Of a DNA stretch of 43,140 nt, positions 22,687 through 43,140 are shown one piece after another (within the stretch, counting starts at the first letter, position 1; every line of letters begins with the position of its first letter). Under the pieces are notes generated by a model, which was not told where the DNA came from, ran no database searches, and saw nothing but the letters and a program-made list of their open reading frames with translations. Made by a program: the position numbers and the translations under genes. Origin of the DNA: Candidatus Fermentithermobacillaceae bacterium (GTDB lineage: Bacteria; Bacillota; Sulfobacillia; Fermentithermobacillales; Fermentithermobacillaceae); assembly GCA_012842425.1 (NCBI GenBank), contig DUSU01000019.1, positions 1 through 43,140 of the forward strand, read 5' to 3'.

Positions 22687-22764
22687 GGGGGCTTAGCTCA
22701 GCGGTAAGAGCGCTCGGTTCACATCCGAGAGGTTTCGTGGGTTCAAATCCCTCAGCCCCCACCA
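22687..22764 (+). tRNA. tRNA-Val (CAC), CCA encoded
   Basis: A cloverleaf can be drawn: acceptor GGGGGCT/AGCCCCC, D stem GCTC/GAGC, anticodon stem CTCGG/CCGAG with loop TTCACAT (anticodon CAC), and T loop TTCAAAT, then A and encoded CCA. Two features are unusual: the variable loop appears to be 7 bases (AGGTTTC) instead of the usual 4-5, and the T stem GTGGG/CCCTC has a T-T mismatch. It should read GUG valine codons if functional. Confidence 0.85.
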
Positions 22765-22786: not shown

Positions 22787-22864
22787 CCCACCTCATGAAG
22801 CATTCTCAGAGTACGTTCTCACGGCACACCCTCATGGTGCATTCTCATGATGCATTCTCACGGT
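22787..22864. repeat. six tandem 13-bp repeats downstream of tRNA-Val
   Basis: Units of 13 bp start at 22787, 22800, 22813, 22826, 22839 and 22852; the best copies are GCATTCTCATGAT and GCATTCTCACGGT. The first copy is the most diverged. No gene covers this stretch. Confidence 0.7.
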
Positions 22865-22901
22865 ACAATCGCCAGACCACAGCGGCCGGCTCGCCTTTCA
22901 G

Positions 22902-22972
22902 TTGGCTGAGCTGGTTCAGTTGGTTAAGTTGGCCCGTTGGTTCGGTTGGCTCCGTTGGTTCAGTGGCTTCAG
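22902..22972. repeat. tandem 9-bp repeats at the end of the GNAT gene
   Basis: Eight head-to-tail units related to TTGGTTCAG (one unit is 8 bp) run into the stop region of the minus-strand acetyltransferase gene. They look like slippage-generated minisatellite DNA. Confidence 0.7.
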
Positions 22973-23508
22973 TTCGCCTTTCGAAGCTTCATCAGGACAA
23001 GCGTTCGCCGGGAACCGTCTTCCCATCTGCAGGTTACCCTTCCCTCGGGCCTGAACCCAACCTTCTGATAGCAGCGTCTGGCCCGTCCGTTGTCTTGATC
23101 GACCCTCAAGAAGATCTCCTGGAGCGCCGTTGCCCTGAAGAAAGCATTCACCAAAGTGCTTACGGCGTCTTCCCCAAGGCCCCGGTCCCACAAGTCTTTC
23201 TCACCGATGAAAACTCGTATCTCGGCCGTCCTGGTCCTCCAAGTTATGTTCAGTACTTCTATCTCGCCTATCAAACGTCCGTCGAGGAGCTCGATTGCGA
23301 AGGTCCTGTGCTGCAGCGTTGGTCTTAAGTGCCACTCACGCGCGTCCTCAACGGTCTGGAACTTCTTACCTGCCCAACGGACTATGTCCGCGTCGTTTTC
23401 CCACTCCATAAGTTTCGGGATATCCTCGTCCTCAACCGGGCGGAGCCTTACCTTCTCGCCGTCTAGGACCCGGAGTTTCCCTACCTTACTGTCTTCACGC
23501 AACGACAT
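22969..23508 (-). CDS. GNAT family N-acetyltransferase
   Basis: 179 aa of RimJ/RimL type (Acetyltransf_3). N-terminal GEKVRLRPVEDEDIPKLMEW and the acetyl-CoA-binding region around DLWDRGLGEDAVSTLV, then NGRARRCYQKVGFRPEG, are diagnostic. Substrates in this group range from ribosomal proteins to antibiotics and cannot be predicted. The ATG lies 11 bases after GGGAGAGG. The upstream gap to the Ddl-like gene (23509-23795, 287 bp) contains no convincing gene. Confidence 0.88.
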   Translation of the reverse strand: MSLREDSKVGKLRVLDGEKVRLRPVEDEDIPKLMEWENDADIVRWAGKKFQTVEDAREWHLRPTLQHRTFAIELLDGRLIGEIEVLNITWRTRTAEIRVFIGEKDLWDRGLGEDAVSTLVNAFFRATALQEIFLRVDQDNGRARRCYQKVGFRPEGRVTCRWEDGSRRTLVLMKLRKAN

Positions 23509-41261: not shown

Positions 41262-42671
41262 TTACGTCCTGGTGTAGAACCAGCTCTTGCTAAGATCCAC
41301 GACTTCCGATGTAAGACCTGCTTCTTGCGCTTCCGAAGCACCTTCCCGGGTAGCCGCCAAGAGGTGACCGCCCTTGCCTACCACCACACCGTCGATCATG
41401 ATCACTTGTCCACGGGAAATCCCGAGGTGAGCGCGGCCCGTCACCGGGTCGGCCACGGTTACGTCTCCGTCAAAGCCTTCGGTGAGGGCGCCTTTGTGCT
41501 CGAAACCGAACATGCGGGCCGGGTTCAGGGTCAGTTTCCTCACCAGCTCGGGCCAGGTCAGCGCTCCGAGCCTGACGAGTGCAGCGCCCCTTTCCAGCTG
41601 TACGTTCCTCGGTATGGCGCCTCCGTCCGTGCTTATGGCGTCAACTACAAATTCGTTTCTGTCCTGCATTTTCGCGGTCGCGAGTATGTGCATGGAGGTG
41701 GTGTCGTTCACGGGGAAGCTCACGCCGGTCCTCGTCCCGGCATCTTTCCAGATCTCGAAGCCTTCCTTGCCCGTTACGAGTTCAATTTTTCCGCCACGAA
41801 GGACTTGGATAAACGCCCACCCGCCGAGGATGGCTTCTCCCATGCCTTTCTCGTCGGGCGTGTATCCTCCCATGCGGAGGCAGTTGCGGGTCACGTGGCT
41901 GGACGGCAGCCCGTCCTTTATGTGCGCCGATGTCCCGTTGATGGTCCCAAGGTACGACTCGGAGACAAGGTTCCGGTGGCTCCGGAGCAGCTCGGCGGCT
42001 TCCAGCGCCTCCGCGGCGGGAGTCCGGTGGAGGCCCCGGCAGTAACTGTTCACATGCGCTATGTGCAGGTGGTTCTTGCCCGCGAGCTCGACCGCCTCGC
42101 GGAAACCCTCAATGTCGCTCCCGTGTCTCGTCGTGCCCACGTGGAATGCGACGTAACAGCCCTTTCTATTTGCCACGTCGATGATCCGGGCGGTAGCTTC
42201 AGGCGTCGCAGGGCTGTGTCCTCCGACGATCTTAAGCCCGAGGGCTCCGTGCGCCAGGGCCTCGTCTGTGATCTCCGAAAGCTCCTCCACGGTAGGATCG
42301 GCATCTTTGGTGTTCCGCCCGGGAGTCACCGTGTGAAGGCCTGCTATGCTCATTCCGCAGCCCATAGCAGCGAGCCCTTTCACCGTGTGCTGGATTGGCC
42401 CTCCGAAGTCCACGGCGGTAATCACACCCACGCCGGCCATCATCGAGAACCCAATCCACCTTGCCTCAGAGGAAACGTGGACATGGGAGTCGATTACGCC
42501 TGGCATAACTATGTAGCCTTCGACATCAATGACGCTGCCTGCGTCCACAGCGAGAAGCGACTCAGATACTGCAGCAATCTTCCCGTGCTTGATGCCCACA
42601 TCATACTTACCGTCAAGTCCGGTGAGAGCGTCGATCACATGTCCGTTCTTCAGCAAGATATCGTATTTCAT
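41262..42671 (-). CDS. amidohydrolase (D-aminoacylase / dihydroorotase-like)
   Basis: 469 aa metal-dependent hydrolase. HxH motif H63/H65 in DSHVHVSSE, probable carboxylated lysine K147 in GALGLKIVGGH, metal ligands H177 (VAFHVGT) and H206 (HLHIAHVN), and the catalytic Asp in DAISTDGGAIPRN. It resembles enzymes annotated as N-acyl-D-amino-acid deacylase or dihydroorotase-like; the true substrate is unknown. The start ATG is followed by the usual KYDILLKNGHVIDA beta-sandwich strand. With the two M20 enzymes and the nitrilase it adds to a set acting on amide bonds of amino-acid derivatives. Confidence 0.9.
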   Translation of the reverse strand: MKYDILLKNGHVIDALTGLDGKYDVGIKHGKIAAVSESLLAVDAGSVIDVEGYIVMPGVIDSHVHVSSEARWIGFSMMAGVGVITAVDFGGPIQHTVKGLAAMGCGMSIAGLHTVTPGRNTKDADPTVEELSEITDEALAHGALGLKIVGGHSPATPEATARIIDVANRKGCYVAFHVGTTRHGSDIEGFREAVELAGKNHLHIAHVNSYCRGLHRTPAAEALEAAELLRSHRNLVSESYLGTINGTSAHIKDGLPSSHVTRNCLRMGGYTPDEKGMGEAILGGWAFIQVLRGGKIELVTGKEGFEIWKDAGTRTGVSFPVNDTTSMHILATAKMQDRNEFVVDAISTDGGAIPRNVQLERGAALVRLGALTWPELVRKLTLNPARMFGFEHKGALTEGFDGDVTVADPVTGRAHLGISRGQVIMIDGVVVGKGGHLLAATREGASEAQEAGLTSEVVDLSKSWFYTRT

Positions 42672-42892
42672 GTACTCACCCTCTTTTCGGTTTTGCGCGG
42701 AGAGCGCTTGGAAAGCAAAGAACCCTGCTACAACAGCGTATCATAACTGACTAGGCGGGCCTTCACGCGGTGCAGGCCCCGGCCACATGGTAGCGTTCTC
42801 TAGGGCACTATTCTTATCCTTGTGTGCCTACGTAACGGCTCTTCGCGAGTCCGGGTGCTCCTTTTCGGGCGCTCATTCACAAGACTCCTGCT

Positions 42893-42958
42893 GTAGTGGT
42901 GCCAGAGTGGTGCTAGAGTGGTGCCGTCGAAGTCAGAGATTGGTACGAGAGTGGTGCG
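42893..42958. repeat. six 11-bp tandem repeats running into the 3' end of tRNA-Leu
   Basis: Units of exactly 11 bp start at 42893, 42904, 42915, 42926, 42937 and 42948; three intact copies are AGAGTGGTGCY or AGAGTGGTGCG. The last copy contains the encoded CCA end and last acceptor-stem bases of tRNA-Leu; the fourth is strongly diverged. On the tRNA strand the core is GCACCACTCT. Most of the 280-bp gap 42672-42951 shows no gene. Confidence 0.8.
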
Positions 42959-43037
42959 AGGGAGGGGATTTGAACCCCTACGCCTTATGGGCACTGGATC
43001 CTAAGTCCAGCTCGTCTGCCAGTTCCGACACCCTCGC
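42952..43037 (-). tRNA. tRNA-Leu (TAG), CCA encoded
   Basis: Class II tRNA with a long variable arm. Acceptor GCGAGGG/CCCTCGC, anticodon stem CTGGA/TCCAG with loop CTTAGGA (anticodon TAG), T arm GGGG-TTCAAAT-CCCC, then A and encoded CCA. Length 86 bases, normal for leucine tRNA. It reads CUA (and other CUN) codons. It follows tRNA-Lys by 28 bp on the same strand, so they are probably one transcript. Confidence 0.96.
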
Positions 43038-43065
43038 ATTTAACGCTGAGGAAACTAATAAGACG

Positions 43066-43140
43066 TGGTGGGCCATGATGGACTCGAACCATCGACTCCC
43101 CGCTTAAAAGGCGGGTGCTCTACCACTGAGCTAATGGCCC
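43066..43140 (-). tRNA. tRNA-Lys (TTT), CCA encoded
   Basis: Acceptor GGGCCAT/ATGGCCC, D stem GCTC/GAGC, anticodon stem CCCGC/GCGGG with loop CTTTTAA (anticodon TTT), T arm with TTCGAGT, then A and encoded CCA. The 5' end coincides with the window edge, so promoter and any upstream tRNAs are out of view. Confidence 0.96.

Follow-up and report, generated by a model that had tools for sequence, protein, structure and literature searches.

Why is the tRNA-Leu(UAG) gene of this bacterium followed by a run of 11-bp units that resemble its own end, and do these units serve any purpose? The DNA analyzed here (the window, 43,140 nucleotides) is contig C113 of a 1.68-Mb draft genome of 113 contigs, which is 83.9% complete and is called here the own genome. 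The genes around the repeated stretch are as follows.

43066..43140, minus strand: tRNA-Lys (TTT), the upstream neighbour of tRNA-Leu; its 5′ end is the contig end.
42952..43037, minus strand: tRNA-Leu (anticodon TAG) with encoded CCA (ARAGORN; Rfam RF00005, 54.1 bits).
41262..42671, minus strand: amidohydrolase-family gene (Pfam PF01979, E 1.3e-12).

The amidohydrolase gene is located downstream of tRNA-Leu, 280 bp from its 3′ end, and its nearest named relatives are records of Candidatus Fermentithermobacillaceae and Fermentithermobacillus with 90, 87, 75, and 70% identity, from which the bacterium very probably belongs to this family. Compared with these 280 bp (42672-42951), about 2.3 kb separate the two genes in the congener G003 (L065/L111), and the interval there holds a long ORF with, by eye, the look of a chemotaxis receptor. 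A short motif upstream of the amidohydrolase gene is common to two relatives (L064 and L065, TTAGCGAACGCTA, a near-palindrome TAGCG/CGCTA) and to the window (TAGAGAACGCTA, 42791-42802, minus strand); the full palindrome, TAGCGNNCGCTA, has a single own-genome site, which is on contig C5. Between 42600 and 43140 we detected no RNA family except tRNA at gathering score, no promoter-like match, and no intrinsic terminator, sought as a GC-rich stem with a T run.

The 11-bp periodicity spans 42897-42962, and its tRNA-proximal unit includes the encoded CCA of tRNA-Leu. Read on the minus strand in the register of the tRNA, the unit consists of the 7-nt 3′ acceptor strand of tRNA-Leu(UAG) and ACCA (7 + 4 = 11 nt). 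The units and the sequence behind them are listed below in the order of transcription.

42952-42962, minus strand: unit 0, CCCTCGCACCA, the last 11 nt of the tRNA-Leu gene itself.
42941..42951, minus strand: unit 1, CTCTCGTACCA, 9/11 to the tRNA end.
42930..42940, minus strand: unit 2, ATCTCTGACTT, decayed, 6/11 to unit 1 on the period-11 match line.
42919..42929, minus strand: unit 3, CGACGGCACCA, 7/11 to the tRNA end.
42908..42918, minus strand: unit 4, CTCTAGCACCA, 9/11 to the tRNA end.
42897..42907, minus strand: unit 5, CTCTGGCACCA, 9/11 to the tRNA end, the last complete unit.
42865..42890, minus strand: post-array sequence CAGGAGTCTTGTGAATGAGCGCCCGA, 20/26 columns aligned with the flank directly behind the tRNA-Leu of G003 (L036).

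Behind units 1-5 the minus strand goes on with CTACAGCAGGAGTC. Matches of units to the tRNA end were listed from a cut-off of 7/11, and unit 2 lies below it. The preliminary description of this DNA had counted six exact units. The contiguous 11-bp periodicity is real, but the units are not exact and no two of the six are identical; the last of them, which was said to contain the encoded CCA of tRNA-Leu, does so because it is the tRNA copy itself. The repeated GCACCA that had been announced downstream of the tRNA is present three times in the trailer, together with one GTACCA, though in imperfect units. Along the match line for period 11, the last 11 nt of the tRNA agree with the next 11 nt at 9/11 and the preceding 11-mer reaches only 4/11, which means that the periodicity starts within the tRNA gene, approximately at the acceptor strand. 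From there the 11-bp phase is maintained through all five copies, decayed unit 2 included.

With units as uneven as these we can put the question: How easily would such a series arise by chance, and how rare is it? When the 101-nt flank was shuffled 200,000 times by first-order resampling, its own-end repeat score was reached 15 times. The array therefore has what characterizes a minisatellite, namely head-to-tail units of fixed period beyond chance. Other tRNA 3′ flanks had been proposed as the place to look for similar repeats, and among them the focal array stands alone: it scored 9 and the next best flank 4 in a set of 181 distinct tRNA-plus-flank sequences, in which flanks of less than 60 nt were left out and some flanks include the next tRNA. 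A T-arm-like motif followed by three GCACCA was found, among 154 genomes of the class, in the own genome and in G084 only, and the G084 match was rejected as a tRNA repeat, reading by eye as an Asn-Gly coding repeat. A general pattern of period-11 CCA series behind T-arms matched 3 of 398 genomes of the phylum (its reversed control gave 2 matches); it was discarded, as none of these resembles its own tRNA end by eye, and the decay of unit 2 makes the pattern miss even the focal array. The core pattern of the array had no match in viral contigs. Exact matches to the tRNA-Leu end plus first unit were limited, in the 154 genomes, to the focal genome, G009, and G011, with a pattern that was built after seeing these three flanks. 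At up to 2 mismatches the same pattern gave 9 matches, which are meaningless because the reversed control gave 22, and no tRNA was found at three loci of this pattern (L116, L118, and L120). Among the titles listed in our literature searches, none concerned repeats behind bacterial tRNA genes.

Short arrays as such are ordinary in the noncoding DNA of the own genome, and the unusual part is the seed. In 257.5 kb, that is, the window plus 14 own-genome stretches of which 13 were picked for their tRNA genes and not at random, arrays scoring at least 40 numbered 13 in noncoding DNA (24.4 kb) and 17 in coding DNA, compared with 6 when the entire 257.5 kb were shuffled once; the split was made by a rough ORF mask, which placed the focal array and that of tRNA-Thr(TGT) under coding DNA though both are tRNA flank. 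Of the 17 terminal tRNAs whose 200-nt flank is complete, 4 have some array behind them (Val, Leu-TAG, Ala-GGC, and Thr-TGT). Behind tRNA-Val(CAC) (window 22687-22764) there are two degenerate arrays with 13-bp and approximately 9-bp units (22791-22974), beginning about 26 and 132 bp behind the gene, and their units are by eye unlike the tRNA end. On contig C82 (L099, 7610-7682), tRNA-Thr(TGT) is followed after about 50 bp by a 31-bp array with 2.4 copies. Because the other arrays near tRNAs do not look like gene ends by eye, the seed of the focal array is possibly a coincidence of place.

The evolution of the array can be traced by comparing the related genomes. The terminal 24-mer of tRNA-Leu was present in 12 of the 14 genomes of the family; G002, one of three congeners, had no match to it. 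The array is absent behind tRNA-Leu(UAG) in G001 and G003, both congeners where the gene was found, and from all 16 other distinct flanks listed behind the 24-mer. The preliminary description had coupled a lack of any repeat in other strains with a coincidental period. Our comparison, made between species, separates the two: the congeners indeed lack the array, but the period is still not coincidental.

In G003, starting from the third base after the CCA of tRNA-Leu, 20 of 26 columns match the focal sequence just past the last unit, a similarity that was equalled in 3 of 20,000 shuffles. It covers 26 columns in one congener, and in a two-strand scan of the 8-kb locus of G003 the orthologous place had the top score of 25 while another place scored 24. 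The G003 flank contains a GGCTC/GAGCC hairpin (z -2.45, 60 nt), and its focal counterpart has no such stability (z 0.53). In the flank of G001 the post-array match was not seen (161 of 500 shuffles as good). Since the G003 flank after the CCA resembles the focal sequence after the array, the simplest reading would be a gain of about 55 bp (5 × 11) in the focal lineage, placed between the CCA and a trailer that is older; the opposite polarity, with units lost in G003, may also be considered. G009 and G011, which belong to another genus, carry CTCTTGCACCC and CTCTTGCGCCC directly behind the tRNA-Leu end (8/11 and 7/11 to it), and their 100-nt flanks align with the focal flank no better than expected by chance (equalled in 186 and 357 of 500 shuffles, respectively). 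These unit-like 11-mers may represent an older first unit or may be due to chance; because of them, the first unit is possibly older than the focal lineage, or part of something functional.

We consider it quite probable that the array is a minisatellite that arose when the end of tRNA-Leu(UAG) was duplicated in tandem, and that has since decayed between the 3′ end and the older trailer. Several observations support this reading: the period is that of the acceptor strand plus ACCA, the copies exceed chance, the array is absent in the relatives examined, the flank of G003 resembles the focal sequence behind the array, the noncoding DNA of the own genome is rich in short arrays, and 42600-43140 has neither promoter-like nor terminator-like matches. 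In this course of events, the last 11 bp of the gene (3′ acceptor strand and ACCA) would have been tandemly duplicated into five extra units, probably by replication slippage or short-homology recombination, and the copies would then have decayed through point mutation because selection acts on the tRNA copy only. The array itself is presumably neutral, and the trailer would be transcribed before the usual 3′ exonucleases remove it. Of the three options in the preliminary description, slippage that starts from the end of the tRNA is the best supported, although another route of duplication may have acted in its place. For the seeding by the tRNA end, the identity of period and gene end is joined by a similarity that starts inside the gene and an array-free flank in G003 that resumes after the array.

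Could the array instead be the footprint of integrative elements at the 3′ end of tRNA-Leu(UAG), either as nested scars or as recombinase-binding repeats of a lost element? Pieces of the same gene are indeed scattered among relatives of the family.

L105 1515-1547: 33-nt 3′ fragment of tRNA-Leu(UAG) in G001, attachment-site-like, without the 5′ half, 4.1 kb behind the intact gene.
L108 3439-3496: 58-nt 3′ fragment in G009, attachment-site-like, 5′ half missing.
L109 2831-2883: 53-nt 3′ fragment in G013, attachment-site-like, 5′ half missing; a gene with the N-terminal domain of DnaB helicase is present on the same 3.3-kb contig.
L110 3073-3129, L113 1-57, and L107 3115-3140: similar tRNA-Leu(UAG) pieces at contig ends in three more relatives (G011, G007, and G006), perhaps cut-off genes.

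The fragments in G001, G009, and G013 suggest that tRNA-Leu(UAG) is a site, and probably a hotspot, of integration in this family, and the flank behind the gene varies among genera of the family and between congeners. No integrase was present among 8 ORFs selected from three of these loci in the family scan. The 11-bp units, however, are far shorter than fragments of 33-58 nt, and none of the other flanks behind the terminal 24-mer carries an array. The own genome has no second copy of this 24-mer at up to 2 mismatches, and its four matches to tyrosine recombinases (PF00589) are on contigs C79, C48, C78, and C83, with none on C113 beside the tRNA; since the genome is 84% complete, a piece may be missing. 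Integration may account for the turnover of flanks but would not alone produce 11-bp units, and we find it unlikely as the source of the array. One of the recombinase matches (L139, C78:7591-8082, minus strand, E 1.4e-32) is situated some 125 bp behind tRNA-Ala(GGC) (C78:7391-7466), where the recombinase gene of an element inserted at this tRNA would be expected.

A role in tRNA maturation is quite unlikely too. Here the acceptor-like strands and RCCA motifs of the array would compete for the 5′ acceptor strand or for the processing enzymes, slowing or regulating the maturation of tRNA-Leu(UAG). According to the energy model unit 1 pairs 7/7 with the 5′ acceptor strand (G-U allowed), and with a trailer of at least 33 nt the predicted minimum-energy fold has no cloverleaf (-45.2 kcal/mol for the 66-nt trailer vs -39.3 with the cloverleaf enforced). 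But the duplex of unit 1 reaches -8.4 kcal/mol compared with -12.8 for the true strand, which makes it 4.4 kcal/mol weaker, and the precursor with its trailer is about as stable as its shuffles (z -0.44). The fold model is a weak guide because even the bare tRNA-Leu departs from the cloverleaf, its own predicted fold being 2 kcal/mol better than the enforced one. Unit 2 is decayed, and the array is not conserved among the relatives examined. Of the decoy CCA sites envisaged earlier, a weak form, by pairing of unit 1, is thus possible at a clear energetic disadvantage. A passage of PMC8097732 states that in B. subtilis RNase PH handles precursors with encoded CCA and RNase Z almost all of those without it; if this rule is valid here, the copies would simply be trimmed away. 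It is very unlikely, though conceivable from the model, that the trailer acts as a reservoir of acceptor 3′ strands, which by maturation at the second CCA (+11 nt) or by refolding would feed changes of the acceptor stem. About 226-280 bp separate the units from the amidohydrolase gene, which is downstream of them on their strand, a placement that a protein-binding array might also have. Four relatives (L064-L067) were examined over about 400 bp in front of their related amidohydrolase gene, and none has such an array; the units are also unequal, with one decayed, so that the helical-phase binding array of the preliminary description is unsupported and a binding function of this kind highly improbable. 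Chance periodicity of units without common origin, finally, is scarcely credible. In its favour, the series is degenerate, Tandem Repeats Finder resolves it into just two short arrays (42895-42925, 2.8 copies; 42936-42960, 2.3 copies), and the single unit-like motif GYACCANYCTNG occurs at about the control rate (15 genome matches, 3 of them inside the array, vs 9 for the reversed pattern); the shuffles and the phase kept over five copies speak against it.

We compared the array with known systems. The rtT (rttR) repeats of E. coli lie behind tyrT-tyrV. They are the nearest known parallel, and the array is alike in kind without being a member: in both, the 3′ end of the tRNA itself, including CCA, is repeated on the trailer side. 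In E. coli the 19-nt end of tyrV recurs 19/19 at +178, +356, and +534 nt behind itself, so the period is 178 nt compared with 11 here, and the 19-mers are exact where our units are decayed. The annotation of rtT includes a small RNA (rttR) and a small protein (tpr), whereas at the focal locus tRNA alone among RNA families reaches its cut-off; even at E up to 10, no RtT-like family matched 42600-43140. Of the rtT characters the array therefore shows the own tRNA 3′ end within the unit, but neither the unit of about 178 nt nor the family match. Bacterial intergenic minisatellites (VNTR) share with it the short head-to-tail units in noncoding DNA, many of which occur in the own genome, and differ in that the focal unit is the end of a tRNA gene. 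Attachment-site fragments likewise consist of duplicated tRNA 3′ sequence with CCA, in relatives even from the same gene, but they are single, 33-58 nt long, and in G001 4.1 kb away, whereas the copies here are of 11 nt, tandem, and adjoining.

Most likely, then, the array is a decayed minisatellite of one lineage, seeded by the tRNA 3′ end. It looks like an old and presumably neutral scar of tandem duplication. As such it would be the short-period equivalent of the rtT repeats of E. coli, and G003 and the focal genome would show the states before and after a tRNA 3′ end gave rise to tandem copies of its acceptor strand. If the copies affected maturation, they would bear on how the processing enzymes choose among encoded CCAs; and if the trailer were a reservoir of acceptor strands, slippage or gene conversion would provide a route for the evolution of the acceptor stem.
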